DNA from: an uncultured Lachnospiraceae bacterium
GTDB taxonomy: Bacteria > Bacillota > Clostridia > Lachnospirales > Lachnospiraceae
Assembly (NCBI GenBank): GCA_947625775.1
Contig: CANQPM010000020.1
Span: forward strand, 1 to 59,179
Direction of reading: 5' to 3'
Length of the DNA: 59,179 nt
Below the pieces are notes generated by a model. It made no database searches and was not told the DNA's origin. It saw only the letters and a list, made by a program, of their open reading frames with translations. Made by a program: the position numbers and the translations under genes. The first letter of the stretch is position 1; the number at the start of each line of letters is the position of its first letter. This document shows positions 30,347-54,190 of this stretch, in pieces.

Positions 30347-30360
30347 ACCTCTTTTTCCCC

Positions 30361-31956: not shown

Positions 31957-31960
31957 GGCT

Positions 31961-32191
31961 CTAGTTTTCCTCCTCCAGCTTTTGGATAAGCGCATACAAG
32001 CTTTTTGCCGAATTAAAATTCTCGGGAACAATATCCTTTGCCGAAATTGTCACGTCAAATGTATCACCAATTTCCGCAACTAATGTTACAATGTCAAAGG
32101 AATCCAGTATCGCATCGCCGATAAGCTTTTCTTGGTTTAAAAAATCCACATCAGGATGCAGATTGTTTAAAATTTCCAATAATTTTTCCAT
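31961..32191 (-). CDS. Acyl/aminoacyl carrier protein (DltC-like)
   Basis: 76 residues. The 4-prime-phosphopantetheine attachment Ser31 lies in GDAILDSFDIVTLV, in place of the usual DSL; the DSFD form occurs in DltC-type carriers. The acidic helices (LVAEIGDTFDVTI, ENFNSAKSLYALIQKLEEEN) fit the fold. GGGAGA precedes the ATG. The gene lies between a small lipoprotein gene and the DltB-like gene (5-bp gap), completing an adenylation-carrier-MBOAT-SGNH set with neighbours. Confidence 0.85.
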   Translation of the reverse strand: MEKLLEILNNLHPDVDFLNQEKLIGDAILDSFDIVTLVAEIGDTFDVTISAKDIVPENFNSAKSLYALIQKLEEEN

Positions 32192-38561: not shown

Positions 38562-38711
38562 TTATTCTTCTTTTCCGTTTATGTCATTTCTTAACCTGTT
38601 CCTTTGGACTGCAAACACCCTTGACAATATCAATATTATCAAAATGCCCAGCGCAGCACCCGCTGCGCCGCCATAATGCATTAACATTCCCGTTGTTATT
38701 TCACTATCCAT
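38562..38711 (-). CDS. 49-residue single-pass membrane protein
   Basis: A short gene: MDSEITTGMLMHYGGAAGAA, then LGILIILILSRVFAVQ, then a basic tail RNRLRNDINGKEE. It has one membrane segment with a short extracellular N-terminus. Its ATG (38711) overlaps the stop of the Ser/Thr kinase gene (38704) and GGGAGG lies upstream inside the kinase gene, so it is translationally coupled. A kinase partner or T7SS accessory role is inferred from position. Confidence 0.6.
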   Translation of the reverse strand: MDSEITTGMLMHYGGAAGAALGILIILILSRVFAVQRNRLRNDINGKEE

Positions 38712-40980
38712 CAATCCACCCTCCCGTTATCAACTGCTGATACATCTGCTGAAGCCATTGAAGCTCCGCGTCATTTGCGCTTTGCTTTGCCTTTTCGCAT
38801 AAATCCATTGTCATATCATAGTATTCAATAAACTGCTTATAATCCCTCTCCTCGTTAGCCTTTGTTCCCTGAATGTCCGCCTCAAGAACGGCAAGGCGCT
38901 TATAATACACATAATTAGACTCATCGCTCTCAGCAAGTTCTTCCAAAATTTCTTTTGCTTCACTCAGTCTGTTTAATTTTTCAAGCAGAACAGCCTTGTT
39001 CATCTGTGTCGTGGCATTGCCCCATCCGTGAGCGATAATCTCATCAAATACGGACAGCGCGGTTTCATCATACATATCATTTCCTGTAACAGCTGCCAAA
39101 TCTATATAGTCTTGGGCAAGCCGCTCTAAAATCAGTATCTGATTGGCTTCCTCTATGTCTGTCCTTGCCCGCATAAGCAGCTCCTCGGACTCAAGTAAGA
39201 TTTCCTCCGTATTGCCCATCTTCCGCAGCGTCTTGTCATATAGCACATATGCACGCAGCTTCATTTCAGCATTGTCTGTTGTCTCAATGCACTCGTTGAA
39301 ATGAGCAACTGCCTCATCATACTCTCCCTTAGCTGATTCTATTTCCGCACTGACAAGCAGAACATAATCGGAATCCATTCCCCGCTCACGTCCCTGACGC
39401 AGCACCTCCTCCGCATTGTCGATTTTACCGCAATAAACAAGCGAAATCGCATAATCGCCATAATATTGACTTACCTGGCTGTTTAACCCGACTGCTGCCT
39501 GATAATATACCACTGCGTCTTTATACTGCTCCAATTCAAAAAAACAATTGGCAAGCAGGTAATATGTATCATCCGCAAACTCCTGACCTAAAAAATCCTC
39601 TTCATTCAGCAACGTGTCCTGAATAAAATCTGTGTCTTCCTCGTACATACCCTGCTCCGCCAAATAAACTGCTTTTTGGTAGTTTGCGTCAAGTTTTTCT
39701 GGCATATAACTGCTGGCTTCTTCATACAATTCCTCAAAATCATCTGAATTACTTTCCCTTGCAGCAATAAGCTTCTCTATCATTGCCTCATATTTTTCAA
39801 GCCGCTCCTGCTTCATCTTCTGGTCTCCCGAAAAATACATAAACACTGATGCCCCTATAAAAAGCATTAACACAAAATAAGCAAGCTCCTGTTTTATCAG
39901 CATTGCTTTATATTTCCTGTCATATTTATGTACCCGCTTGACTGCACGGAGCATCTCCTCAGCATTCGCAAATCTTTTGCCCGCATCGGCTTCCATAGCC
40001 TTATTGATTATAACGCTGAAGCCATTGCTGTATTGCGGGGCTGCATTTTCAATCGGCGGATTTTTCCCTGGCTGTGAAGACGGACGTATTCCTGTAGCAA
40101 GATGATATACTGTCGCGCCTATGCTATATACGTCCGCGCGCAGGTCTATTTTTATGGCAGAATTGTCTATTGTTACACTTTCTCGGGCTTTGGTGGAAAT
40201 CACTCCTCCTTCTTCGACTGTATTGCCATACTGATTTGACAATACTGTCATTTTTTCGCCTGTGCCCTCATTACTTACACCATTATTTATATTTTGATTT
40301 GACAATACAGTAAATGCCTCATTTTTGTTTTTGCTTTCCTGACGATTTGACAATACCGTTGCTGTCTCACTTAAATTTTTATGTGACAACACTGTCGCTT
40401 TATCATCTGTATTAACACTTGTTTCCAATGTTTCTACCGCCTGACATTGCTCCGGTGACGCATATCCTTCCGAATAGCCTACCGTAACCATCTTGCCCTC
40501 TGTTAAAAATCCAGCTATATTAAAATCAATCAGACATATATTGTCATCAGGCTTTAGCATAATATTTGCAGGCTTTATATCGCCGTGCAGAATAGGAGGC
40601 TTCTGCTTATGAAGATACGCCATTACTTCGCAAAGCTGCCGTGTATATTTCAACACCTTTTCCTTTGTAAACAGAGTGTTTTCTTCAATAAGCTGCTCAA
40701 ATGATTTTCCCTCGACAAAATCCATTACTGTATATACATCATTCCCTATGCTTATAAAATCAAATACCTGCGGAAGATACTCGTGGTGTAAATTTTTAAG
40801 GATATCCGTTTCCATTCTTTCATCCAATATCCCATCAACCCACGCATGCATTTTTTTCAGGACAACATATTTTCGCAGTCGCTGGTGATATGCCTTAAAA
40901 ATCACGCCTCCCCCGCCCGAACCAATCTCGGTTATCTCGCTATAAAGCCCTTTAAACTCATTCTCTGAAACCCCAGCCAT
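38704..40980 (-). CDS. Membrane Ser/Thr protein kinase with TVLS-repeat insert and extracellular TPRs
   Basis: 758 residues. Residues 15-300 form a kinase domain: glycine loop IGSGGGGVIF (19-28), VVLKK with Lys42/43, HGDIKPANI (132-140, HGD for HRD), DFN (152-154, for DFG), SPEQ (175-178, APE position), DVYSIG (283-288). Between SPEQ and DVYSIG lies an insert of about 100 residues with four TVLS motifs (Thr196, 208, 224, 245). Residues 366-384 are a membrane segment, and 390-758 are TPRs, presumably outside. Catalytic Lys and Asp residues are kept, so activity is plausible. It precedes a coupled 49-residue protein and follows PP2C and FHA genes. The layout (kinase fold, single TM, outer domain) recalls the pseudokinase EssB/YukC of T7SS. 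Confidence 0.8.
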   Translation of the reverse strand: MAGVSENEFKGLYSEITEIGSGGGGVIFKAYHQRLRKYVVLKKMHAWVDGILDERMETDILKNLHHEYLPQVFDFISIGNDVYTVMDFVEGKSFEQLIEENTLFTKEKVLKYTRQLCEVMAYLHKQKPPILHGDIKPANIMLKPDDNICLIDFNIAGFLTEGKMVTVGYSEGYASPEQCQAVETLETSVNTDDKATVLSHKNLSETATVLSNRQESKNKNEAFTVLSNQNINNGVSNEGTGEKMTVLSNQYGNTVEEGGVISTKARESVTIDNSAIKIDLRADVYSIGATVYHLATGIRPSSQPGKNPPIENAAPQYSNGFSVIINKAMEADAGKRFANAEEMLRAVKRVHKYDRKYKAMLIKQELAYFVLMLFIGASVFMYFSGDQKMKQERLEKYEAMIEKLIAARESNSDDFEELYEEASSYMPEKLDANYQKAVYLAEQGMYEEDTDFIQDTLLNEEDFLGQEFADDTYYLLANCFFELEQYKDAVVYYQAAVGLNSQVSQYYGDYAISLVYCGKIDNAEEVLRQGRERGMDSDYVLLVSAEIESAKGEYDEAVAHFNECIETTDNAEMKLRAYVLYDKTLRKMGNTEEILLESEELLMRARTDIEEANQILILERLAQDYIDLAAVTGNDMYDETALSVFDEIIAHGWGNATTQMNKAVLLEKLNRLSEAKEILEELAESDESNYVYYKRLAVLEADIQGTKANEERDYKQFIEYYDMTMDLCEKAKQSANDAELQWLQQMYQQLITGGWIDG
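40225..40410 (-). repeat. Four TVLS motif repeats inside the kinase gene
   Basis: DNA encoding residues 191-252 of the kinase contains four imperfect copies of a short unit: ATVLSH, ATVLSN, FTVLSNQ and MTVLSNQ, spaced 12-21 residues apart. On the plus strand each reads GACAATAC or GACAACAC. Their Thr residues are candidate phosphorylation sites for FHA recognition. Confidence 0.7.
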
Positions 40981-40992
40981 ATTACATATCTC

Positions 40993-41700
40993 CTACCTAA
41001 TTTTCCCTGTGTCAACTTCCACAAATATCATGGATAAATTATCCTTTGCCCCATTTTGATAAACCCGCTTCCTAATCTGCTCCGCCACAGACGCTGTTTT
41101 CCTCCACATAAGGCTTCTAAGCCGTGAAAAAAGAAATTTTTCTTCACAATATTTGTAAATCCCATCGCTGCACAAGAAAAAACAAGTTTTCTTTTTAATT
41201 ACCCCTGAAAAAATATTAGGAGAAATCCTTTTCTGTGCGCCCAGAGCCTGTGTCAGACCTCCCTGAAACTGATCCTGCACATCATCTGATGTTGCCTGCA
41301 TACAGTCCCAGCCCTGGCAACGGTACATTCTACTGTCGCCTACATTTATTACGACATATGCAGCTTTCTGTATCAACAACAGGCACAGTGTGGTACCGCC
41401 TAATTGCCCCATCTCATAATACATTTGATAGATGCCTTCGTTTATGCTTCTGACTTTTTTCTCCAGTTCATCAACTACATCATAAAATGGCATTGCACCA
41501 ATGCAATCTCTAATTTTTTCCCACCACTCTTCCAATAATGTGACAGCCATCTTGCTGGCAAGCTCTCCCCTGTAATGTCCGCCCATTCCGTCAGCCACCG
41601 CAAAAATCCCCACATGCTCTGCATTTACCACAAATATTGCATCCTGATTGTTAAGACGCTGCAGACCTGTTTCAGATAACGATATAATATTCCGTATCAA
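40993..41700 (-). CDS. PP2C-family Ser/Thr phosphatase
   Basis: 235 residues. PP2C metal-binding motifs: FAVADGMGGHYRGE, LGGTTLCLLLI, VINVGDSRMYR, FFLCSDGIYKY and GAKDNLSMIF. Cytoplasmic, without membrane segment. I place the start at TTG 41700 (LIRNIISLSETG), 7 nt after AGGAG; an earlier in-frame TTG at 41727 would overlap the upstream gene and lacks a site. It lies 12 bp before the kinase gene, forming the usual kinase-phosphatase pair, and directly after the FHA-containing gene. Confidence 0.85.
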   Translation of the reverse strand: MIRNIISLSETGLQRLNNQDAIFVVNAEHVGIFAVADGMGGHYRGELASKMAVTLLEEWWEKIRDCIGAMPFYDVVDELEKKVRSINEGIYQMYYEMGQLGGTTLCLLLIQKAAYVVINVGDSRMYRCQGWDCMQATSDDVQDQFQGGLTQALGAQKRISPNIFSGVIKKKTCFFLCSDGIYKYCEEKFLFSRLRSLMWRKTASVAEQIRKRVYQNGAKDNLSMIFVEVDTGKIR

Positions 41701-41713
41701 GCTCCATCTCCTG

Positions 41714-43306
41714 TTAAATCTCGTCAACCAGTTCCACGCAATACCGGTGTTTGCCTATTCTTATTTTCCCACCGCTTATAATTGGCACTTCTCCGTCTAT
41801 TGGCAACGCCACATTTTCATAATATGTACCGTTGCTACTCTCGCATCTCTTCAAATACATTAATTCTCCCCTTAAAAATATCTTACAGTGTTCCCTTGAA
41901 AGCTCCTCATCATCACTTATCACAATATTCTGTGTACTGCTGCGTCCAATGCTTACGGCATCGTTAATCGGCACTTTAAAAAATATGCCTGGATTGTCAA
42001 GATTGCGCAATATCAACTGTTTTTTTCCCCAAAGCTCCTTTTCAGGTGTTCCATTCTGACCAGTATCTGGCAAACGTGTCATAACTGTGTCAGCGGGTGG
42101 CTCTTCTGGTGGCTTTTCAGGCGCAGGCGCAGCAGCAGGAGCTTTTCTTCCCTTTTTTTGTTTAAGTACAATCAAAACAACTGCCACTATAGCCAGCACT
42201 GCAATAACAGCCAAGATCACTATTAAAACTACTATATAAGTCTGCGGAGTTTCGCTTTTTTGCTCGTTCTCATCATCATTATCGGTTTCTTCATCTAATG
42301 CTGTGGGGCTTAAGCTTGGAAGAGAACTTTCTGGCTCTGTCTGTATTTCTGATTCTGGTTCTGCCACAGTTTCAGGCTCAGCCTGCACAAGACTTGCATT
42401 TCCAAACGGCATCTCCACGCTGGTCTTTAGTTCCACAGCTCCCTCTGACGTGCCCAGCTTTAGCAAAATGCTTTTAACACTGCCATCTTTTAAGCTCTCA
42501 TCAGGATTAAGCTTTAAACATATGCCTGTCTGATCCGTCATAATTGCATTTACAATATCCTCATTAGCTGTATTTTCATCCAAAAGAAAATAATCCGCTT
42601 TTGCCGCCCTGGAAAACGAAAACATGGTTTCAAGCTGAGTTGAATTATTTTTCTGCGGTATGCCAATCGTATATACAGGACACTGGCTGCTCTCAATGTA
42701 TCTGCGCACCTCGTCATTTGTGTAGCCGATAAAGTTGTCGTCAGCCCCGTCAGACAAAACGATTATTCTTCTGTACGCATATGTATCCTCTGATTTAAGT
42801 CCTAATATTGCATTATATAGGACATCACTCAGGTATGTGTCCTGATCATTATAAGAAATATTATCAACAATATTTTCCAAAATCGAATGGTCATTTGTAT
42901 AATCACATAAAAACATAGCTTCCTTTGAAAACGTGGCTATTTTAATCTGCTCATTTTCCTTTGCGCCTGCTATTATTCCCTTTATAATTGCCTGAATATC
43001 TGCGTGTTTTTTTTCAGGAATAGATTTTGAATTATCCACCAAAATCAATGTACGCATAAAGGGATTCAGCTGCTCAAACGCGGAAGCCGCAATCTGTTCC
43101 GCAGGACATACTGTATTTCCAATTTGAACAGAAGTATCAGATGGTAGTTCTGTAACTCCTTTAATATAGATATAAATTTCACCGCCATATACATTTGTTT
43201 CCAAAATTTTTGCATCTTCGGCATATACCGTCAATGATGCCAGCATTATAACAAAAATACTCATCACTGCCGCTGCCATTTTCCGCCTTTTGCCTTTTTG
43301 CTTCAT
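41714..43306 (-). CDS. VWA-TM-FHA membrane protein
   Basis: 530 residues. Signal peptide (MAAAVMSIFVIMLASLTVYA), then an external VWA domain with MIDAS LILVDNSKSIPEK and RRIIVLSDGADDN, a Pro/Glu-rich spacer, a membrane segment (VVLIVILAVIAVLAIVAVVL), then an internal Pro-rich linker with DTVMTRLPD and a C-terminal FHA domain: VSIGRSSTQNIVISDDEELS, REHCKIFLRG, SSNGTYYENV. The FHA would bind phospho-Thr from the kinase; TVMT in the linker resembles the kinase TVLS sites. ATG 43306 is 7 nt after AAAGGTGG. The topology links an outer adhesion module to inner phospho-signalling. Confidence 0.8.
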   Translation of the reverse strand: MKQKGKRRKMAAAVMSIFVIMLASLTVYAEDAKILETNVYGGEIYIYIKGVTELPSDTSVQIGNTVCPAEQIAASAFEQLNPFMRTLILVDNSKSIPEKKHADIQAIIKGIIAGAKENEQIKIATFSKEAMFLCDYTNDHSILENIVDNISYNDQDTYLSDVLYNAILGLKSEDTYAYRRIIVLSDGADDNFIGYTNDEVRRYIESSQCPVYTIGIPQKNNSTQLETMFSFSRAAKADYFLLDENTANEDIVNAIMTDQTGICLKLNPDESLKDGSVKSILLKLGTSEGAVELKTSVEMPFGNASLVQAEPETVAEPESEIQTEPESSLPSLSPTALDEETDNDDENEQKSETPQTYIVVLIVILAVIAVLAIVAVVLIVLKQKKGRKAPAAAPAPEKPPEEPPADTVMTRLPDTGQNGTPEKELWGKKQLILRNLDNPGIFFKVPINDAVSIGRSSTQNIVISDDEELSREHCKIFLRGELMYLKRCESSNGTYYENVALPIDGEVPIISGGKIRIGKHRYCVELVDEI

Positions 43307-43331
43307 ATAATTACCACCTTTGCCTTTTATT

Positions 43332-43622
43332 TTAAAGAAATGCCTTGGCATTTCTGCTTATTTCATATTCAGCAGCCTCATACTGTTCCATACAGTAATT
43401 TGCTGTTTCATGCAGCTGATCCAGCCGTGCCTCAACTGTCCCAATACTGCTGCGAATCTGTTCCAACCGCTGTCCAATTTGATAACTTCTTCTTATATCC
43501 TCTGGCATTTCACTTTTCACTCTGTCAATCTGCTTTTGAATTGCTTTTATTTTTATGCTTAAAGACGGCAGAACATAATTGGCCTTTCTCACTTCTTTGA
43601 AATTCACATATATTTTTGGCAT
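43332..43622 (-). CDS. Small helical protein, T7SS-associated
   Basis: 96 residues, almost all helical: YVLPSLSIKIKAIQKQIDRV, KSEMPEDIRRSYQIGQRLEQ, IRSSIGTVEARLDQLHETA. No WXG motif, but the length and two-helix pattern fit the WXG100/ESAT-6 superfamily or an associated chaperone. It sits between a WXG-like gene and the VWA-FHA gene. It has no signal peptide and no membrane segment. Family assignment is uncertain. Confidence 0.55.
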   Translation of the reverse strand: MPKIYVNFKEVRKANYVLPSLSIKIKAIQKQIDRVKSEMPEDIRRSYQIGQRLEQIRSSIGTVEARLDQLHETANYCMEQYEAAEYEISRNAKAFL

Positions 43623-43632
43623 TCCTACACCC

Positions 43633-43890
43633 CTATTCCTCAGTCAGTCCATCGTAAAACCTAATCATATCATGTCCAATGCCATACAACTCATCCGCGT
43701 TTCTTTTTACTGTGCCAAGAAGCTTGTCTATCAGATCATTTATTCCTTCTATTTCACCTGAAACCCAATACTCATTCACTAAAACCTTATACCGCAGCAT
43801 ATCTTTTCGGATATCCATAAGCTCCTCTTCTATCTTCCGAAGTTTCCTTACCTCTGCCATGATTTCTTCATATTTTGCGTCAGTACACAT
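43633..43890 (-). CDS. Small helical WXG100-like protein
   Basis: 85 residues. Helical hairpin with a W-x-x-G turn: VLVNEYWVSGEIEGINDLID, then LLGTVKRNADELYGIGHDMI. This resembles the WXG100 turn but with one extra residue. Likely a secreted or chaperone-type T7SS component. The start ATG 43890 has a weak upstream site; an internal ATG for MAEVRK is possible. It ends 11 bp before the 96-residue helical gene begins. Confidence 0.55.
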   Translation of the reverse strand: MCTDAKYEEIMAEVRKLRKIEEELMDIRKDMLRYKVLVNEYWVSGEIEGINDLIDKLLGTVKRNADELYGIGHDMIRFYDGLTEE

Positions 43891-43926
43891 ACCAAAACAT
43901 CCATTTCATCACAAAATCAGCTATAC

Positions 43927-43953
43927 CCGAAGCGTGTACGAAACACGCTTCGG
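43927..43953 (-). promoter_or_regulatory. Strong intercistronic hairpin
   Basis: CCGAAGCGTGT and ACACGCTTCGG form a perfect 11-bp stem with a 5-nt loop between the lipoprotein gene and the small helical gene. There is no T-tract, so it is more likely an mRNA processing or stabilising structure than a terminator. Confidence 0.5.
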
Positions 43954-43992
43954 ATATATACTGAAAAATTAATGCATTTACATTCGTTATAA

Positions 43993-45999
43993 TTATAATG
44001 GCTGGAAACCAGAGGTATCATTATACTCGATTTCTACAACCACGCCTACAAATACACTAAACTTGCCATCAGGCGTGGAAATTTTAAGCGTAGTGCTTCC
44101 TGGACCGACTGCTGTCACTGTTCCCGAACCAGCACTGCAGACAGACGGATTTTGCGATTCAAATATCAAATCTCCCGCACTGTAGCCATCTGGTACAGAC
44201 ACGATTCCTACAGTCATAGTCTCGCCCTCCTGCAGATACAGCATCTGTGTAGATGTCTTAATGAATCCGAATACAATCTCCTCAAAATCAAAAATTTTGT
44301 ATTCATCATACGGCTTGCCTTCTTCATCCGTGGGGGCTGTTTCTACCTTTTCCTTACCTCTTGTGCATTCTTCTACCAACACGCCGTTTTCCCAGTGAAA
44401 CCGCTTATTGACGCGGCTGCTTTCAGAATCCCATATTACAGCTGAATATTTAAGCTTGTCGCTGATAAACGTCATTATGCAACCGTCTTCATTTACAGCC
44501 CATCGCAGCGGCACATACAGGTATATGTCAATGCAGGCTGGCTCATCACCTAACAGGTCAACATCGACATTTCCGATTGCGACGACTCCTGATGTTACCT
44601 TTATGTTTACAATGCTTTCTTCTAAGAAACAAAGTTCCGCCTTAACGCAGGGTTCTACAGTAACTGTGGCATCCGCGTGAAAATCAAAGTTGGGGTTTTG
44701 ATTTTCTAAAGACTTTGCCAGCCCTTTTCCTTTCTCATAATTTACTGTTGCCACAATCTCTGAAGTATATGTAAGCGTAATCTGTCCGTCAAAGCCCAAA
44801 TTTGCCACAAGCGAAATTCTTACATTCAAGGGAGTAGTGCCTATAGGAAGCTTCATTGTTCCCAAAGGTACTTGCTTTGACAAATGATCTGATTTATACT
44901 CTGCTTTCACACTGTCATCAAAGGATAATGTAACATTTGCTTTCTTGAGCCCTTTAAAGATTCCATAATCCACATCAGTGGTAACTTTAATATTGGAAAT
45001 AGTTACATCAAAGGAAACACCATTCCCTAAATCCTTGTTAAAGTTTATGCTATTTTTGTCTATATCAAATCCAGTAAGCATAACTGAATTATCATTATTT
45101 GAAAGTACAGGATGCTCAGCAATTATTTCAGACTGTGCATTTGGTCTGTAGTCCGCAAATGCAAGAAGCGGTCTGTCGGGTGTATCTGCTCTACTGATTG
45201 TCACGCCCTCAGCAGGCTCTACATTAATCACCGTCGGCTCATAAGTGCCTGACACCTGCACTTCCTCATACACGTCTTCCAATCCTGCATTCGTATATGT
45301 AATTTCATCTCCCGATACAGAATTTACCTTGATTGCATATGCAGGGCTTTCTTCAGACGGTTTGATATAAACTACATCTCCTGTCTGATAAGTCGTACCA
45401 TCACGCACAACTGCCGTAGTTCCATCACCTTTTAGGGTGACTGCTGTAGCTTCAGCCTCCTTCACTCCTTCATTGTATTTATATTCAAACTTCTGTGGCA
45501 GCACCAGATTATTGGCATAATCGTATGCATACGCCAAAATCAGCGCAGCATCTTCCTCTGTAAGACTTGCGTCAAGAGCTGCCTCATCTATATTTGCAAT
45601 TTTGCTGGCAAAAAAGTCTGTGAGATTGTCCTCAGTCACTTCTATGCCCGTGTCACAGCTGTTTATTTTTTCTATCCCTATTGCCCTTACGGCTGTCTCT
45701 ACCGCGTAGCGCCATGTTGCACCATCTTCTGGATTAAACTTGTCTTTTTCAGGCAGAACTCCCCATTCGGCGCATGCCTGTATCTCGTCATAGTACGCAC
45801 TCCCAGAATTTACGTCCGAATAAAAATCCTGTTCGTTTTCATATGCATTATAGCCAAATTTATCTCCTAATAGCCCTGCCCATTCTCTTTTAGTCAAATC
45901 TCCGCCTGTCTTAGCTGTTTCGGAAGAACTCTGACAGCCACACAATATGGCTGTCAGAAGCATCAGAGCCGACAGGAGGAAAACTATTCGTTTCTTCAT
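43993..45999 (-). CDS. Lipoprotein with SLH-like N-terminus and Big2-like C-terminus
   Basis: 668 residues. Lipoprotein signal with lipobox LCGCQSS. Residues 30-150 (WAGLLGDKFGYNAYENEQDF, ACAEWGVLPEKDKFNPEDGA, LTEEDAALILAYAYDYANN) resemble S-layer-homology repeats. The centre is a beta-rich region without a known match. The C-terminus has a Big2-like strand set (VCSAGSGTVTAVGPGSTTLK, ISTPDGKFSVFVGVVVEIEY). It sits between the WXG100-like genes and the small helical genes, so it may be an extracellular component of the secretion system or its substrate. Confidence 0.65.
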   Translation of the reverse strand: MKKRIVFLLSALMLLTAILCGCQSSSETAKTGGDLTKREWAGLLGDKFGYNAYENEQDFYSDVNSGSAYYDEIQACAEWGVLPEKDKFNPEDGATWRYAVETAVRAIGIEKINSCDTGIEVTEDNLTDFFASKIANIDEAALDASLTEEDAALILAYAYDYANNLVLPQKFEYKYNEGVKEAEATAVTLKGDGTTAVVRDGTTYQTGDVVYIKPSEESPAYAIKVNSVSGDEITYTNAGLEDVYEEVQVSGTYEPTVINVEPAEGVTISRADTPDRPLLAFADYRPNAQSEIIAEHPVLSNNDNSVMLTGFDIDKNSINFNKDLGNGVSFDVTISNIKVTTDVDYGIFKGLKKANVTLSFDDSVKAEYKSDHLSKQVPLGTMKLPIGTTPLNVRISLVANLGFDGQITLTYTSEIVATVNYEKGKGLAKSLENQNPNFDFHADATVTVEPCVKAELCFLEESIVNIKVTSGVVAIGNVDVDLLGDEPACIDIYLYVPLRWAVNEDGCIMTFISDKLKYSAVIWDSESSRVNKRFHWENGVLVEECTRGKEKVETAPTDEEGKPYDEYKIFDFEEIVFGFIKTSTQMLYLQEGETMTVGIVSVPDGYSAGDLIFESQNPSVCSAGSGTVTAVGPGSTTLKISTPDGKFSVFVGVVVEIEYNDTSGFQPL

Positions 46000-46023
46000 A
46001 TATGCTCTCCCTCCGAATGAATC

Positions 46024-46326
46024 TTATATGAATTGCTCTGCATTTGATGTAATTTTTTGTTCAGTTCCTTCAAAATCGTAGCCCGTATTGCGCACTAATT
46101 TTGCATAATTCTCTACTACATTATAGTACTCCTCAAATCTGGGCTCCATTCCTTGTATTTTGTTTCTAATTGTTTCTGCCGCATTACTCTCATATATACC
46201 TGCAAGATTTTTAATCGTTGTCTGAATATCGTGCAACTTATTTATCAAGGTACTATTGTGTTTATCAATTTCTCCCGCCCATGATTCAAAACTACCATAA
46301 TTAATATATTGTTGTTCCTCTGACAT
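46024..46326 (-). CDS. WXG100-like (ESAT-6 superfamily) protein
   Basis: 100 residues, the family length. Two-helix hairpin: YGSFESWAGEIDKHNSTLIN, then a turn LAGIYESNAAETIRNKIQ, where YES takes the WXG position (compare WxGxA). C-terminal export-type signal YDFEGTEQ, similar to YxxxD/E. GAGGAGG precedes ATG. Adjacent to a second WXG100-like gene (14 bp) and near essC, so a secreted T7SS substrate is likely. Confidence 0.75.
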   Translation of the reverse strand: MSEEQQYINYGSFESWAGEIDKHNSTLINKLHDIQTTIKNLAGIYESNAAETIRNKIQGMEPRFEEYYNVVENYAKLVRNTGYDFEGTEQKITSNAEQFI

Positions 46327-46340
46327 ATTTTTTTCCTCCT

Positions 46341-46640
46341 CTATCTCAAACTATTAATCGCCGTAATTGCATTTTGCTGTGTTCGTTCATAGTCATCTGC
46401 TGCTTGCCTCAAAAAAGTAGCATACTCATTCATAAGTTCTCTCATTTTGCGAAAATCAGGTTCAAAATCTTTTACCTTTTTACAAAATGCTGTTGCATCA
46501 GCTCCCTTAAAATCTGTTGTAGTAAATGTTTCCACCGTATTAAACAGACCTTGATACTCATTATAATAGTCTGCTGCATACGCATCCACCGTATCAGCCG
46601 CCTTCCTCAATTCTCGCGGTGTTACTAGAATACTTTCCAT
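46341..46640 (-). CDS. WXG100-like (ESAT-6 superfamily) protein
   Basis: 99 residues from ATG 46640 (MESILVTP), 6 nt after AAAGGAG; an upstream start at 46679 is less likely. Helical hairpin with turn TTTDFKGADATAFCKKV, FKG at the WXG position. C-terminal ADDYERTQQN fits the YxxxD/E-type signal loosely. Forms a tandem pair with 46024-46326, as EsxA/EsxB-like pairs do. Confidence 0.75.
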   Translation of the reverse strand: MESILVTPRELRKAADTVDAYAADYYNEYQGLFNTVETFTTTDFKGADATAFCKKVKDFEPDFRKMRELMNEYATFLRQAADDYERTQQNAITAINSLR

Positions 46641-46722
46641 ATTCTTCTCCTTTCTTGCATTAAAGCTTATCGCAGTCATACGGTCATTTGCCGCTTCACT
46701 GCTCTTTGTTAATAGTTACTTT

Positions 46723-46980
46723 TTAAATTAACATCAGTTTTGAACCATTTTTTAAATGAAGGCTCTCAACTGAAGAATTTACATTATAAATCCTGCCATC
46801 TTCCATACTGCACAGCGCTGTTGTGTCATCAGGCATATATGCACCGCCTGTTATCCCTTCAAAAAAGCCAGAAATAAGACGCACCGCCTGATGCACACAC
46901 AGAGTACGCGGCAGAAGAATATCATATCCTGCACCAGTCGCCGGAATACAGAGCCGCACTAAAACCTTATTCTTATTCAT
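46723..46980 (-). CDS. YukD/EsaB-like ubiquitin-fold protein
   Basis: 85 residues: VLVRLCIPATGAGYDILLPR, then TLCVHQAVRLISGFF and SVESLHLKNGSKLMLI, the pattern of a beta-grasp YukD/EsaB protein (the usual C-terminal LKDGDxL is here LKNGSKL). Its start overlaps the end of essC by eight bases. YukD/EsaB are standard small cytoplasmic components of Firmicute T7SS. Confidence 0.75.
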   Translation of the reverse strand: MNKNKVLVRLCIPATGAGYDILLPRTLCVHQAVRLISGFFEGITGGAYMPDDTTALCSMEDGRIYNVNSSVESLHLKNGSKLMLI

Positions 46981-49900
46981 CCTCCTCTGCCTCCTTACCC
47001 ATACGTTCTGAAACCAACAGTTTCACTGATTGGGTATTTGCTTTTTTGATATAGAATCCGCCAGTAAAATCTATATTTTTTGCCAGCGCCGCATTTTTCC
47101 TGTTATATTTCAGCCGCATCTGATCTACAATTCCATTTCCTATCCAGATTCCCTCACCATTGCACCAGCTTTCCACACTGTAACGGTTAGACGACTGGTA
47201 ATCGTCAAATACCCAGTAAAAGATTTCGTACTTGCCGCTTGTTTTTTCTAATATCACCTTTAACTTATCTACACCGTCACTGCTAAGCTGCTCTTTAATC
47301 TGCTGCAGCCCCATCAGCAGCACGACAATTGGGTGCATGTCCAAAGAATCCGGCAACACTCCATTTGACAGTTTATATTCATTGTTGCGATCCCTTGTTA
47401 TCTCAAAAAGCTTTACAACCGCAGCTTCTGGTTTTTCTGTCAGATAATGCTCACTATCCTTTTTATCCAAGTACAGTACCTTGCCTGGATCAAACACATA
47501 TGTTTCAATCTCAGTGTTATGCTGCAGCATATTTGCAAGCCCTTCCGCGAATGCGGTGATATCCTGCCTGTCCACTGCAAGAACCTGCTCCACGCTTCCC
47601 TTACGAAAATTGATGCAGACTGGCTCAGCTGTTACCGTATTAAGTCCGATAGGCACATTTTCAAACGAAACACTGACCTCCTCCAAGTGCTTTCTATATA
47701 CTGCCCTAGGCATAGAAGGAATCTGCTTTGCCTTTTTCTGCCCCATATCTATAAGCTCCTGACAGAAACTCCTTATTACATCCGCTGCTTCCTCAGGATT
47801 TACCGATACGCATGCTGTCTGAAATTCATAAACCTGCTTTTCACGGTAAATGCCGCGTCCCGCAATTCTTGAAGGATACACTCCTCCGGTATTTCCAAGA
47901 ATTGCTGTATAGTCCGATTTATCATTCATCTGCAGGACAAATACCTGTGAAAAATTCTGCTGCAGCTTAAACCTTATTCCCGACTGTGACAAATTCGTAA
48001 TGATAAAGTAAATGCCGTATTTCGTGCAGTCCCTTGTTATAGAAGCCATACGATCATCAAATGCTTCATACTGCTCGGCAAAATTTGCATATTCATTTAT
48101 AATAACCACTATGCTTGGCGTATCCGTATTTCCTTGCCGACAATAAGACAAATAATCTCCTCCAGCAGAGGCAAAGCGCTTCTTGCGCTGCTTTATCTCA
48201 CGGCTAAGCAGCTGGTACAGGTTGGCAATCCGCTCATCATCGCCTGAAAGCACCACTCCTCCCGTCTGCGGAGCCTTTTCAAACATCTGCAGCGTCTCAG
48301 AGCCAAAATCCATAATATACGTATTCAGCTCGCTGCTCGTATGTGTTCGATACAATGAATACAACACTGTGGCAAGAAATTCTTCTTTTCCGCTTCCTGC
48401 CGAACCATAGCAGATTGCATTTCCCATCTCCGCAAGCGGCATTGTAAGAAGCCGCTGATCCTGCTCAAATGGATCATCAAGCTCACCTATAATTGGTTTT
48501 AAAACAAATTTGTTCTGGATATCTTTATACTTGTATTTCTTCTCTAGCCGTTCCACAGTAATACGCGCTGGAATCTCAGGAAGCCACAGCGGTCTGGCAT
48601 CAAGCTGCTCTTCCTGGGCAATCCGCGTAAGATACTCTACAATCTCTACTATTTGTTTTTTCGCCTCTCCTGAATTTGCAATTTCCCTCTGCGGTTTTGC
48701 CTCTTCTAAGACATTTCCTTGATGGTCAATCATCTGTACACATTCATCCCGTTCTACCGCCGCCATATCAGAAGGCAGATACGGAGCCCCGCACCATGCT
48801 GACTGCCCCTGTTCAAACAATTCATTATATCCAACCTGCAGATAAAAACGTCCCGTTTCCACAAGTTCCGCAGCATCCGGACGCTTTAGCATCTCCATAC
48901 TGTCTGCCCTGTCCTGAACCTTCAAACATATTTTAAATTTGGAGTTTGCCCAAATCTGATCGCTCACGACACCGCTTGGTTTCTGTGTTGCAAGAATTAA
49001 GTGCACCCCAAGGCTGCGCCCTATACGCGCGGTGCTAATTAACTGAGTCATAAATTCGGGCTGTTGGCTTTTTAACTCGGCAAACTCATCTGCTACAATT
49101 AAAAGATGTGGAACTGGCTCGTCAACAACCTTATTGCGATAAAGTTTCTGATACTTGTATATGTCCATTGTCCCTTCATTAGCAATTTGTCTTGCCCTCG
49201 CAAATATTTTCTGTCTTCGCTTTAATTCACTCTGTATTGACAGCAAAGACCTAGTAATTGCCGCACCATCTAGGTTTGTAATGGTTCCCGCAAGATGCGG
49301 CAGATGATACTGTTCGCTCTCAAAAGCGCCTACAAGTCCACCGCCCTTATAATCAATCAATATAAATGCAACATCTTCAGGACTGTAATTTACAGCCAGT
49401 GACAGTACAAACGTTATAATAAATTCGGATTTCCCCGATCCTGTCATTCCCGCAATCAATCCATGCGGACCATGCACCTGCTCATGCAAATCCAAGTAAA
49501 ACAGCCCGCCATCTGAATTAACGCCAATTGGCGCTTGAAGAGAAGTAACAGGATTGCTTGTCTTCCATCTGCTGATAATATTTAAATGTTCATATTTGCC
49601 TACCTTATACATATCCAAAAATGTCAGCATATCAGGCAGCGCATATTTACCGCCTTGAAGATCAAGCTTATAATCTGCTATATTTCTAACAGCTTTTTCA
49701 GCTTCCTCTTCTGATACTATATCCTGCGCAAAATTAACTGGCGCTCCTCCTGACAGCTTGTAATTAAACATCATGCCCTGCTTACTGTTTACCTGAAGAA
49801 TCATCGTGCATTCCTTAGGCAGGTTGCTCATAGTATCATATGCGGCAAGATAACTAAAGCACGGCAGTTCCTCATCCTTTAACATTTCTGATAAAAAGGC

Positions 49901-51553
49901 GCAGCTGTCGGAGAGTGTCTTACTGGTTGATACGACAACATAATGTGGCGCTTTTAACCCATATTCCTTGTATTTCTGCATCTCCCGCAGAAAATAAGCA
50001 GACAATTCCCGCACTTCTTCCGGATTTACAGCCAAAAAGCGCAGCTTAAAATCATTGTCCCATATGTGTGGCATCCATCTGACATAACCGTATCTCTCCA
50101 AATGGGACTCATCACAGATAAATACAAGCTTTACTTCATCATAGCTGTGAAGCGCGGCAATCTGAATGAGCAGATTATTTAATATTCCATTTACAGCGCT
50201 TCTGTCGCCTACTATTCCAGACACTCTATGCTCTACAAGAGAATATACCACTGGAACATTTGAAATAATCTGTTTCTCCTCACTGAATCGACAGACTTCC
50301 TCACGCATAACGTCATCATCTATACAAAATCTTTGTTCAGGAAACGATAGTTCAGCACAAAGCGGAGTATTTCCGACTCCTATTCTCAATACCAGAAAAT
50401 CTGGTCTGCCAATTACGCGATTCCAAAGCAACATATCATAAAAATCATTACGCTTCATCAACGATAATATAAAAGGATGATTTTCCTCCAGTATTTCCTG
50501 CTGCCATTTGGATGCCTTGTATATTTCAGCCCGAATATTCTCTAAATATTTTAAATACTTTTTCCTTCTCTCCTGCTCCTTTTCCCTTTTCTTATTTTTG
50601 TCACGCTTTTTTACAATAAACGGAAACAAAACCATTCCCGCCAACATGGAAATGGAGGTAATAAAAGCTGGAACAGCGCTTATAAATTCCCCACCGTTGC
50701 GCAGTGTTGTTGTCATTGTCAAAATACCTGATGAAAGTGACGCTGCCCCCATTACCAAAGAAGGAGCCAGTGCCAGCACTAATGGCGTATCATCTCCCTT
50801 TTCTTGCGCTGTCGGAGCATCAATCTTTAACATCAATGGTTCAATTTCTCTATTAAAATGCGGAGAACGGTAATAAATTTTTTCCTCAATTTCATCTGGT
50901 TCTATGTAGGGGACTATCGTCTCACTTTGGTAAGGTTTAAAAATCCTGTCATCTATTATAACTGTCTGGTCAGGATTATTTATCGCCAAAAAGTGATAGC
51001 CAAATACAATTTTTACGCCAAGAATATATAAAATATCCCCATAATCTAAGGATACGGGTTTTTTTACCCGTTTTCCGTTTACATAAATACCATTTTTACT
51101 GTTATTGTCAATAAGAGTCCATGTATCATTTGCCAAAGAAATCTGTGCATGAATAGGCGATACATATGGATTATTTATCCTAATCTGATTATCAGACTGC
51201 GTTCCTATATTAATAGTCCTATTTGAGTCAATACAATACTTATTAAAAGTACAGCGATCTTGCGTGTACGACTCTGTAAAAATATAACCTCTCTGTTTTT
51301 GAAGAATAACTGGATAAATCTTTCCAACCTCAAGCTCAAGCATTGAAGTTTCTCTATCCGTGTCAGGCATATGCAGTTTCAAACCACGCCCTGCCTTTAT
51401 TTTCCAAACTTCAGCTTCTCCTTCAATACTGATAAGCTTTCTTTTAATATCTGTAAGCTCCAGCTCTGTATCTTCTATCCAATAACGCCCACGCACTTTT
51501 TCTGGAAGAAGCACATCATATAATTTGTCCTCACACATCAATGTTACAATCAT
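46973..51553 (-). CDS. essC: EssC: T7SS FtsK/SpoIIIE ATPase with FHA domain
   Basis: 1526 residues. Residues 1-85 resemble the degenerate first FHA of Firmicute EssC. A second FHA spans about 105-190 (TINIGTQSDNQIRINNPYVS, NNSKNGIYVNGKRV). Two membrane segments at about 258-283 and 290-314. The first FtsK ATPase has Walker A AGMTGSGKSEF (about 704) and Walker B LLIVADEFAEL (about 820). The second has GSAGSGKEEF (about 1054) with IVVIINEYANF at the B position. The third domain (from about 1328) is degenerate. This is the motor of the secretion system. The ATG has a weak site (CGGATGAAAT). The putative inverted-repeat switch lies 170 bp upstream. Confidence 0.9.
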   Translation of the reverse strand: MIVTLMCEDKLYDVLLPEKVRGRYWIEDTELELTDIKRKLISIEGEAEVWKIKAGRGLKLHMPDTDRETSMLELEVGKIYPVILQKQRGYIFTESYTQDRCTFNKYCIDSNRTINIGTQSDNQIRINNPYVSPIHAQISLANDTWTLIDNNSKNGIYVNGKRVKKPVSLDYGDILYILGVKIVFGYHFLAINNPDQTVIIDDRIFKPYQSETIVPYIEPDEIEEKIYYRSPHFNREIEPLMLKIDAPTAQEKGDDTPLVLALAPSLVMGAASLSSGILTMTTTLRNGGEFISAVPAFITSISMLAGMVLFPFIVKKRDKNKKREKEQERRKKYLKYLENIRAEIYKASKWQQEILEENHPFILSLMKRNDFYDMLLWNRVIGRPDFLVLRIGVGNTPLCAELSFPEQRFCIDDDVMREEVCRFSEEKQIISNVPVVYSLVEHRVSGIVGDRSAVNGILNNLLIQIAALHSYDEVKLVFICDESHLERYGYVRWMPHIWDNDFKLRFLAVNPEEVRELSAYFLREMQKYKEYGLKAPHYVVVSTSKTLSDSCAFLSEMLKDEELPCFSYLAAYDTMSNLPKECTMILQVNSKQGMMFNYKLSGGAPVNFAQDIVSEEEAEKAVRNIADYKLDLQGGKYALPDMLTFLDMYKVGKYEHLNIISRWKTSNPVTSLQAPIGVNSDGGLFYLDLHEQVHGPHGLIAGMTGSGKSEFIITFVLSLAVNYSPEDVAFILIDYKGGGLVGAFESEQYHLPHLAGTITNLDGAAITRSLLSIQSELKRRQKIFARARQIANEGTMDIYKYQKLYRNKVVDEPVPHLLIVADEFAELKSQQPEFMTQLISTARIGRSLGVHLILATQKPSGVVSDQIWANSKFKICLKVQDRADSMEMLKRPDAAELVETGRFYLQVGYNELFEQGQSAWCGAPYLPSDMAAVERDECVQMIDHQGNVLEEAKPQREIANSGEAKKQIVEIVEYLTRIAQEEQLDARPLWLPEIPARITVERLEKKYKYKDIQNKFVLKPIIGELDDPFEQDQRLLTMPLAEMGNAICYGSAGSGKEEFLATVLYSLYRTHTSSELNTYIMDFGSETLQMFEKAPQTGGVVLSGDDERIANLYQLLSREIKQRKKRFASAGGDYLSYCRQGNTDTPSIVVIINEYANFAEQYEAFDDRMASITRDCTKYGIYFIITNLSQSGIRFKLQQNFSQVFVLQMNDKSDYTAILGNTGGVYPSRIAGRGIYREKQVYEFQTACVSVNPEEAADVIRSFCQELIDMGQKKAKQIPSMPRAVYRKHLEEVSVSFENVPIGLNTVTAEPVCINFRKGSVEQVLAVDRQDITAFAEGLANMLQHNTEIETYVFDPGKVLYLDKKDSEHYLTEKPEAAVVKLFEITRDRNNEYKLSNGVLPDSLDMHPIVVLLMGLQQIKEQLSSDGVDKLKVILEKTSGKYEIFYWVFDDYQSSNRYSVESWCNGEGIWIGNGIVDQMRLKYNRKNAALAKNIDFTGGFYIKKANTQSVKLLVSERMGKEAEEDE

Positions 51554-51747
51554 ATTTCATCCGTTCTCGGCAATGCCGTATTTAATGTCATATTTTGTCT
51601 TTTTGAAATTTTTGTAATTTTGGGAATTTTTTCAATAACACTTAACTTTTATTAACAGGCTCCCATATGCTTTAAATGCTTTTGCAATGCCTGTCATTTT
51701 TAACTTTAATCACCATGAAGCTTTATCAAAAAGTGTACTTTTTGACA

Positions 51748-51776
51748 ATATTCGATTTCTTAAAACAAAACTTCAA
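51748..51776 (-). promoter_or_regulatory. Candidate promoter reading toward essC
   Basis: On the minus strand TTGAAG (51776-51771), 17 bp and GAATAT (51753-51748) lie inside the candidate invertible segment, with the -10 abutting site 1 and about 195 bp upstream of the essC start. The -10 is weak (3 of 6). Confidence 0.35.
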
Positions 51777-51834
51777 TCTTCACAAAAAATTTTCAAAACA
51801 TCTAAAAATATTCGTCAAATGTCGTAAAAAAAGG

Positions 51835-51863
51835 TTGATTTTTGCCTCTTATTGTGATAAATT
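51835..51863 (+). promoter_or_regulatory. Candidate promoter reading away from essC
   Basis: TTGATT (51835-51840), 17 bp and TAAATT (51858-51863) inside the same segment. In the present orientation it reads into the recombinase 3-prime end; after inversion it would read toward essC. Confidence 0.35.
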
Positions 51864-51907
51864 GACATATGTAATAATCTATCAAAAAGTACACCTTTTG
51901 ACAGTTC

Positions 51908-52561
<654 letters not shown>

Positions 52562-52873
52562 TCACAAGCTTTTCCACAATTTTCATTATGGTTTCAATCA
52601 CACAAACAATATAAAATTGAATCGTATTTTTAATACTCATAAATGCCTCTCTATATACTATTCATCTAATAAACAACCGCTTTTCAAAATTATTATTCCA
52701 TAAATAATCTTCTTCAATTTTGTCTTAAAAATACGAGCTTCCATACAGAACATAAACCATCTGGAAATTTTGATGAATTTTGTATATTCTTTGGTATTTC
52801 GTATTATTTTATCTTCAAATCCGCCTTATGTTTTTATTTTATCTTTTATCCCCTCTCATTTTAAGATTTTATA

Positions 52874-52908
52874 CAAATAAAAAGACATCTGCATATTTTC
52901 TGCAGATG
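52874..52908 (-). terminator. Minus-strand intrinsic terminator
   Basis: CATCTGCA and TGCAGATG form a perfect 8-bp stem, followed on the minus strand by TCTTTTTATTT. No gene is visible in 52556-53254 apart from terminator-like hairpins. Confidence 0.6.
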
Positions 52909-53151
52909 CCTCATAGCCTATATTTTGCACAGATGATGTATCCCAAAGGGTTATTATACATAATTTACTAATCACTTCCAGAATATACCATAAAGAAATT
53001 GCCAAATCAATTATAATTTTATGCAGCCATAGGTTAAACTTTATACAACCATAGATGCAGCCTTACTATTTGTGCCACAAATTTCTCTATCTGCGGTGAA
53101 AAACATAGGCAGACGGGCAAAATAAAAAAATGTATCAGAATTTAATAAAAT

Positions 53152-53190
53152 AAAAGAGACATACAGCATTACGCCATATGTCCCTTTTTT
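53152..53190. terminator. Bidirectional terminator-like hairpin
   Basis: AAAAGAGACATA pairs with TATGTCCCTTTT (one mismatch) with a 13-nt loop and T-tracts. It lies downstream of the Rad52-like gene and its in-frame extension. Confidence 0.55.
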
Positions 53191-53254
53191 GTATCTCATC
53201 CAATATTATTGATTTTTGAACGACTATACAGTATCCTTATTTCTTCTTTTTCCC

Positions 53255-53449
53255 TCACGTTTTTTCATATGTCTTTTTAGGCTTTTCATTGGATTTTTCA
53301 TTATCCTTTTTAGAATAAGGCTTTACTGGCAACATTACAGCCAAATCCTTTTCATTATCTGACACATACAGCATCATTATTTCCCTGTTCTTGACAGCTC
53401 GCATCATAATCTTTTCGCTGCTGAATACCTGTGTACTCTGTCCATAGGC
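53255..53449 (-). other. 64-codon in-frame extension after the Rad52-like stop
   Basis: Immediately after the TGA at 53450-53452 the same frame stays open for 64 codons: AYGQSTQVFSSEKIMMRAVK, NREIMMLYVSDNEKDLAVML, then a Lys-rich tail ending KKTYEKT. The only starts inside are the paired ATGs of KIMMRA, without a good ribosome binding site. It could be a C-terminal region cut off by a nonsense mutation, a small separate gene, or a readthrough product. Confidence 0.5.
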
Positions 53450-54190
53450 TCACGTCCTGCATTTTGCTGAAACATATCTCAGCACCTGCTCATCTTCAAC
53501 CTGGTCAGTCACAGCTTTAGCCTGCATTTCTAGTCCGGGCATCAGGCTGTTTAAAAGCTTGTCCTGTTCGATTGCCGTCATGCTTTCGGTCAAATTAAAC
53601 GGAATATACATATTGATTTTCCTTCCGCCTTTTACCTCCACGGGAACAAAATACCCAAAGTTTTCCCTCACATGGGCTTTACCTGTTATTTTCAGCAGAT
53701 ACAAAGCCGCCTCAGCCGAATCCGAACCCGCAATGCACTGGACAGCGCCGCCTTTTCGTAGATTTACCGCATCAGAACCTACCATACATGTGGCTTTTAC
53801 ATGCATAAGGCTTTCCATACAATACATTAAGGCATCGCCAATACACATCCTGGCTAATGCAGTAACGCTCCTGCCTTCTAATGTCTCTGCTATTCCCATG
53901 CCCGTTTTAATACAGACAACCGCTCCGCTGTCATCCCTGACGGCAATCCTGCATGAGACAGCCATACGGCCGTTATTCTGCCCGCCAGGACCGTATTCAA
54001 GCATCGGTTTTCCAATCAGCAGGTCATAATTGCAGCACCCAAATACATCATCAAGGCGCTGTTTAATGCATTTTTCCTTAATGCGCCTCTGGCCTGCAGA
54101 TGTCGCTTCATACGCTTCTTCAGGAAATGGGACGTTTATCTTTTCCCATACCTCCTTAAAGCTTTTTTGATTGATGGTCCTTTCCCCCAT
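53450..54190 (-). CDS. Possible Rad52-like single-strand annealing protein
   Basis: 246 residues from ATG 54190, which follows AAAGGAGG. The core ATSAGQRRIKEKCIKQRLDD, VFGCCNYDLLIGKPMLEYGP, MAVSCRIAVRDDSGAVVCIK, TGMGIAE resembles the N-terminal half of Rad52/22-type annealing proteins (RLDDVFG...W/Y, basic and beta strands with a glycine-rich GMG). The following region ALARMCIGDALMYCMESL fits the later helix. Homology is distant and rests on pattern only. Its leader closely matches that of the UvrD-like gene at 8144. In mobile elements such proteins support recombination or replication. Confidence 0.5.
   Translation of the reverse strand: MGERTINQKSFKEVWEKINVPFPEEAYEATSAGQRRIKEKCIKQRLDDVFGCCNYDLLIGKPMLEYGPGGQNNGRMAVSCRIAVRDDSGAVVCIKTGMGIAETLEGRSVTALARMCIGDALMYCMESLMHVKATCMVGSDAVNLRKGGAVQCIAGSDSAEAALYLLKITGKAHVRENFGYFVPVEVKGGRKINMYIPFNLTESMTAIEQDKLLNSLMPGLEMQAKAVTDQVEDEQVLRYVSAKCRT

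Follow-up and report, generated by a model that had tools for sequence, protein, structure and literature searches.

A gene for a small serine recombinase lies upstream of essC, the ATPase gene of a type VII secretion system (T7SS), in DNA from an uncultured Lachnospiraceae bacterium, and two near-palindromes stand between the two genes. The question raised by this locus is whether the recombinase inverts the DNA between the palindromes, and whether secretion is switched on and off in this way. We analysed the whole stretch of 59,179 nucleotides, hereafter called the window. An earlier note on this DNA had proposed an invertible segment carrying a promoter in each direction; its invertase sites flanking a promoter-sized segment before the T7SS genes stood up to the analysis, and its promoter in each direction is less well supported. 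As judged from sequence, it is very probable that the locus is a serine-invertase phase-variation switch, inversion being carried out by the adjacent recombinase. Inversion is the best reading because the centres of the sites co-vary among relatives, a sibling segment is naturally inverted and the promoter holds a fixed place within the segment.

Layout of the locus and its crossover sites

The secretion genes were assigned to a T7SS on the basis of a TIGR03928 score of 979 bits for EssC (cut-off 778) and of two WXG100 proteins above cut-off (Table 1). Their order through the kinase gene is common to G017 C62 and G023 C1 over the extent of these stretches; in G015 C111 it holds for the first five genes only. 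The cluster would presumably be read as one transcript. Like the T7SSe and T7SSj systems in the accessible part of PMC11217815, the window has an EssC with an FHA domain, WXG100 proteins, a PPM phosphatase and a kinase, the latter with TPRs as in T7SSj. It differs in that the FHA partner has a VWA domain and gave no DUF6382 match at E 0.001, and in that the 85-aa protein gave no ubiquitin-like match. Beyond the cluster, the same strand carries MBOAT and asparagine-synthase genes (28505-32031), which may form a separate biosynthetic cluster. An Rfam scan of positions 46000-54000 and a tRNA scan gave no matches, and 2 terminator-like hairpins were found in the region against 0.9 +/- 0.9 expected.

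Table 1. Features of the window at and around the predicted switch
Feature	Position	Strand	Sequence or size	Remarks
essC-proximal (distal) crossover site	51726..51745		TCAAAAAGT GT ACTTTTTGA	centre GT on + strand
Recombinase-proximal crossover site	51882..51901		TCAAAAAGT AC ACCTTTTGA	centre AC on + strand
Segment predicted to invert	51746..51881		136 bp	homologous segments 71-159 bp
Small serine recombinase, predicted invertase	51908..52555	-	215 aa	Pfam Resolvase E 5e-30
Leader, distal site to essC	51554..51725	-	172 bp	
essC, T7SS ATPase with N-terminal FHA domain	46973..51553	-	1526 aa	TIGR03928 E 3e-294
Rest of T7SS cluster	38704..46980	-		same strand as essC; 85-aa protein, two WXG100 proteins, 668-aa protein, two small proteins, VWA-FHA protein, PP2C phosphatase, kinase with TPRs
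Terminator-like hairpin upstream of recombinase gene	52882..52912	-		
Predicted promoter	51835..51863	+	TTGATT-17-TAAATT	points away from essC in the deposited orientation
Block common to window and NRPS-linked cassette of same-genus genome G017	51716..53425			C24 87%, C89 93%

The recombinase belongs to the small serine recombinases by its Resolvase domain at residues 17-161, and a match to HTH_23 at 176-210 stayed under the cut-off (20 bits against 24.6). Its nearest solved chain is 2r0q (E 8e-27), followed by the gamma-delta and Tn3 resolvases and then by the DNA-invertase chains 4m6f and 3uj3. It is not a member of the Mpi family (NCBIfam NF009949), for which it scored 46.6 bits against a cut-off of 272. 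The open reading frame is intact, and the protein is 97% identical to that of G017 C89 and 94% to that of locus L012; identities to L013, L014 and L015 are 90, 90 and 87%. A second recombinase, 62% identical, is encoded elsewhere in the genome of the window (G000 C11:40854-41303, L144).

The pair of near-palindromes between the recombinase gene and essC is real, and comprises the two 20-bp sites of Table 1. For the 24-mers around them (51724-51747 and 51880-51903), the inverted match of 21/24 given in the earlier note was confirmed; in direct orientation the match is 88%, since both sites are palindromes in themselves, and direction is given only by the centre. The 20-nt arms are 95% complementary. 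The recombinase-proximal site starts six bases past the recombinase stop codon, and its centre is GT if read from the recombinase side. One half-site deviates (ACCTTTTGA), with the same change in many sibling pairs. When the 3.75-Mb assembly (42 contigs) was searched, the two window sites alone matched with at most 2 mismatches, and no further site of this type was found at that threshold. They account for 4 of the 18 rows returned; the other 14 all carry 3 mismatches and are fewer than the 23 rows obtained with the pattern written backwards, and were therefore put down to chance and ruled out as real sites.

Site pairs, inversion and cargo among relatives

In order to place the pair in a family, the search was restricted to one genome per species and the best 80 of 433 recombinase homologues were kept. 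Eleven of the 80 contigs end less than 400 bp from the recombinase, and counts refer to the other 69, with at least 400 bp downstream. A site pair lies within 400 bp 3' of the recombinase in 42 of these 69 homologues, against a background in the rest of the same loci of 18 single matches in 980 kb and no two-site bin among 2131 bins of 460 bp. In all 42 the two centres are reverse complements of each other and none is palindromic: 32 are GT/AC, 6 AC/GT, 2 AA/TT, 1 AG/CT and 1 CT/AG. These are three kinds of centre (GT/AC, AA/TT and AG/CT), or five if order is counted, with four pairs outside GT/AC or AC/GT. This agrees with the inverted sites proposed in the earlier note and speaks against direct subsites of a resolvase res, and with GT and AC centres rejoining is expected only after inversion. 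The 42 pairs, like the 47 segments considered below, are related, and therefore represent fewer independent events.

Fewer than two sites within 400 bp were found in the remaining 27 of the 69 loci: in four the pair lies at a greater distance or is more widely spaced (L030, L035, L044 and L082), in six there is a single site and in 17 none. A recombinase retained beside a missing site had been named in the earlier note as evidence against inversion, and this was seen in part, in the 6/69 homologues with one site and the 17/69 with none. Eleven of the 17 fall together in a group of 16 rows in the recombinase tree, none of which has a site pair, and a change of specificity is therefore likely there; support for the group is 81/79, and 99/90 for 15 rows, with the bootstrap not settled. 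A de novo search for palindrome pairs near 25 recombinases without a close pair returned only the wide pair of L082. That pair (L082:943-2880) and the one at L044:10666-11487 are 1918 and 802 bp apart, have complementary centres and perhaps bound larger invertible segments. A plasmid search gave 40 records with distant recombinases, none of the 20 matches listed extending over the sites, and viral contigs held 7 recombinase relatives. The recombinase of L073, 71% identical to that of the window, comes from a MAG titled Akkermansia and adjoins an Oscillospiraceae row in the tree; this MAG is perhaps mis-binned.

Inversion itself was observed in a sibling. L013 and L014 belong to one genome and L015 to another, and the segment of L015 is naturally inverted relative to that of L013: once the L013 segment is inverted, the two align over 63/75 positions with a score of 86, against 21 in the same orientation and a maximum of 36 in 200 shuffles. 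The promoter TTGCAA-17-TATAAT points toward the operon in L015 and away from it in L013 and L014. The first downstream proteins of the three loci are similar at both ends, as compared without alignment.

A graph assembler breaks where two continuations follow the same site. Of the 11 loci with a contig end near the recombinase, five were followed to another contig, and in three of these five, from three genomes of which two are not titled MAG, both sites lie at contig ends. One contig of G751 (L025) begins at the first base of a site and another stops at the last base; both contigs stop 4 bp past a site in G752 (L031), and both begin 2 bp before a site in G753 (L028). In the stretches read from these three genomes, the recombinase is on one of the two contigs only. 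In G754 and G755 the sites are near contig ends with offsets that do not match. Mixed orientations would leave contig ends at both sites in this way; cassettes repeated within a genome can do so too. Both orientations were seen among siblings (L015 against L013, and the split contigs in 3/5 loci), and the copy in the window may behave likewise.

The genes behind the switch were scanned through 30 downstream proteins, not always from the first gene and several cut to their first 600-1000 residues; 7 of the 30 had no Pfam match at E 1e-5. They include AMP-ligases or NRPS (L012, L034, L036), glycosyl hydrolases (L018, L049), a polysaccharide deacetylase (L029), LRR, Cna_B, VWA and dockerin proteins (L020, L023, L024, L030, L080), an SPFH protein (L022), kinase and FHA-ABC proteins (L046) and a TNB-domain protein (L013). 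The last of these is the first long open reading frame behind the invertible promoter (L013:10860-12314), has a Cas12f1-like, TnpB-like TNB domain and starts near the distal site; L014 and L015 have a similar protein, the L013 copy being the one scanned. The nearest copies (L012, and C24 and C89 of G017) precede a 288/292-aa protein, an AMP-ligase and a large protein, which carries NRPS domains in L012. When 18 proteins of the window served as queries, essC was not found among the 80 loci beyond an 88-aa stretch in L046, many flanks being short. These observations suggest that the module is a plug-in, a reusable on/off unit which relatives carry before quite different genes.

Predicted promoters in the segment and the probable output at essC

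Promoters were scored with approximate weights in 47 segments (the 42 pairs, L030, L035, L101, L102 and the window; L044 was dropped for its 802-bp spacing and L097 as the same as L049). The -10 of the best promoter stops 17-21 nt short of a segment end in 43/47 segments, against 6% in mononucleotide shuffles. It points toward the recombinase in 40/47 and toward the operon in 7/47; requiring a margin of 2 leaves 35 and 6. Among the latter, L046 (876-10870) has its best promoter facing the operon (11.0 against 9.4), with a kinase-LRR and an FHA-ABC protein behind it and a PP2C-like match further on.

The best promoter of the window (Table 1) scores 9.6 and lies 18 nt from the segment end. Its hexamers and orientation are unchanged in L012 and G017 C24, the segments of which are otherwise about 80% and 77% identical to that of the window. 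Taken alone it is not beyond chance, its score being reached by 13.5% of dinucleotide shuffles; it also fails the 9-of-12 rule, by which 11 promoter-like sites were listed in the region against 9.0 +/- 3.2 expected. The best pair directed at essC is TTGACG-18-GAAAAT at 51818-51789 (-), with a score of 8.6; its distance of 43 nt to the segment end departs from the position usual in the family, and it is partly kept in L012 (TTGATG-18-GAAAAT), its -10 being lost in a gap of G017 C24. Of the promoters formerly proposed for the two directions, the one at 51835-51863 has the place and spacing of the family, whereas the one at 51748-51776 was no top hit (the next pair on the minus strand, which overlaps it, scored 5.3). 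Equal promoters in both directions were rejected, the family having one promoter near one end in 43/47 segments; in the window the weaker essC-ward candidate (8.6 against 9.6) may nevertheless act.

Because the best promoter of the window faces away from essC, we read the deposited orientation as OFF, which is probably correct; the score margin is small. In the mechanism we propose, the recombinase would bind the two palindromic sites and pair them in inverted alignment, and the 136-bp segment, with one main promoter close to one end, would flip. In the ON state transcription from this promoter would pass the distal site and enter essC and the T7SS cluster, from a predicted start about 200 nt before essC in the inverted form; in the OFF state it would be directed at the recombinase gene from its 3' side. 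Since the parts are intact, the copy in the window is expected to be active, with T7SS output following its inversion. The promoter in the segment would then be active and the main promoter of essC.

The alternative that survives best is that the switch flips while essC has other promoters, so that inversion would only modulate the T7SS or mainly make antisense RNA over the recombinase gene. There is room for this in the 172 bp between the distal site and essC, where a weak 9-of-12 promoter match, TTGAAA-16-AAAAAT, occurs, in the essC-ward pair inside the segment, and in the 40/47 family segments that face the recombinase 3' end. Against it, the best match in the leader scores only 7.2 with a 15-nt spacer, and the leader is not conserved with the orthologues of G017 and G023, DNA homology ending at 51557. 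The leader is predicted to be without a convincing promoter of its own, and we regard this alternative as rather unlikely.

The module may instead have arrived beside essC and no longer flip, which we think improbable. Such a locked switch would agree with the distribution of the cassette. The essC search matched 27/144, 38/397 and 36/392 genomes in overlapping sets, with at most 30 loci taken per set; 86 loci were read and 72 were usable, having an essC match and at least 800 bp upstream, two of them being the window itself and some places occurring twice. Among these 72 only the two entries of the window have the cassette before essC. A recombinase of this kind and its sites are likewise missing from the 1.5 kb upstream of essC in its three nearest orthologues (73, 71 and 69% in the N-terminal part). 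The deviating half-site would also fit a locked switch; however, that change is common among sibling pairs, the sites and promoter hexamers are conserved, and the intact recombinase is still nearly identical to its relatives in G017 C89 and L012.

Other elements were seen upstream of essC in these loci. A tyrosine-integrase-like gene lies there in the same orientation in L112:3506-4645 (G017 C62; Pfam Phage_integrase E 1e-24), L199:2469-3587 (G138 C19) and L201:77-949 (G640 C23), the last two identified by tblastn at 35-38%, and near essC in the opposite orientation in L134. Clear inverted repeats were not found at these genes, but it is curious to meet another class of recombinase there. An inverton served by the integrase upstream of essC in G017 was rejected for want of convincing inverted repeats. 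Four evenly spaced hairpin palindromes precede the essC homologue of L194 (2603-2760), and palindrome pairs there were rejected as repeated hairpins.

That the palindromes are direct-orientation subsites of a resolvase res, the enzyme resolving dimers or cointegrates, is most improbable and largely refuted: the nearest solved chains are resolvases and the palindromes do align directly, but the centres are inverted in 42/42 pairs, changed centres included, where accessory res subsites would have no reason to co-vary, and the natural inversion in L015 and the many unrelated kinds of cargo also speak against it.

Known systems and a possible transferable cassette

Hin/Gin-type serine invertases are small serine recombinases which invert a promoter segment between palindromic sites of about 26 bp with a 2-bp centre. 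The predicted switch of the window shares with them the small serine recombinase, the pair of palindromic sites with a 2-bp centre and, as predicted, the inversion of a promoter segment; it differs in that the recombinase gene lies outside the segment and its sequence is closer to resolvase chains. The flg and cwpV switches of C. difficile are, in the accessible parts of their descriptions, likewise clostridial DNA-inversion switches that set the expression of the genes behind them, with other cargo, and RecV acts on the flg switch. RecV is a tyrosine recombinase. The Hin invertase is treated in the accessible part of PMC11868660. Gut-bacterial invertons, as presented in the accessible part of PMC11892184, have a promoter flanked by inverted repeats with recombinase genes near, and their surface-type cargo is like that of several siblings here; the invertases named are tyrosine-type or site-specific integrases, and the words 'serine' and 'type VII' are absent from its main text. 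Phase variation touching a T7SS is described for ESX-1-associated variants (PMC11898584, accessible part), where the mechanism is indels in homopolymeric tracts and not DNA inversion. A search by titles and the openings of abstracts, with most subscription papers outside its range, found no T7SS under DNA-inversion control. Serine-invertase promoter switches are already known; as far as this search goes, what is apparently new is a T7SS as the output and a cassette family that swaps its output.

Homology between the window and the sibling cassettes stops 7-10 bp outside the distal site. The ends of G017 C24 and C89 overlap by 77 exact bases, and no close copy of the L012-type NRPS was found in the genome of the window, the best match being 32% with the first 1000 residues as query. 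We tentatively suggest, as a possibility that we would not yet favour, that a transferable cassette of about 1.7 kb, consisting of recombinase, sites and promoter and with the distal site as its edge, swaps its cargo at the crossover site, and that the T7SS has here come under stochastic, OFF-biased control. An edge at a crossover site makes a site-specific route tempting, but much the same edge would result from ordinary recombination. If the recombinase created the edge by joining sites from different loci, it would both flip the promoter and rewire which operon is phase-variable.

T7SSs have roles in bacterial competition and in contacts with hosts. If our reading of the locus is true, a heritable on/off switch would turn secretion into a bet placed by a clonal population, and it could explain T7SS loci that are silent in culture. 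The sibling loci offer a ready set in which to follow the attachment of one switch to surface-type proteins, AMP-ligase/NRPS genes, glycosyl hydrolases and a T7SS.
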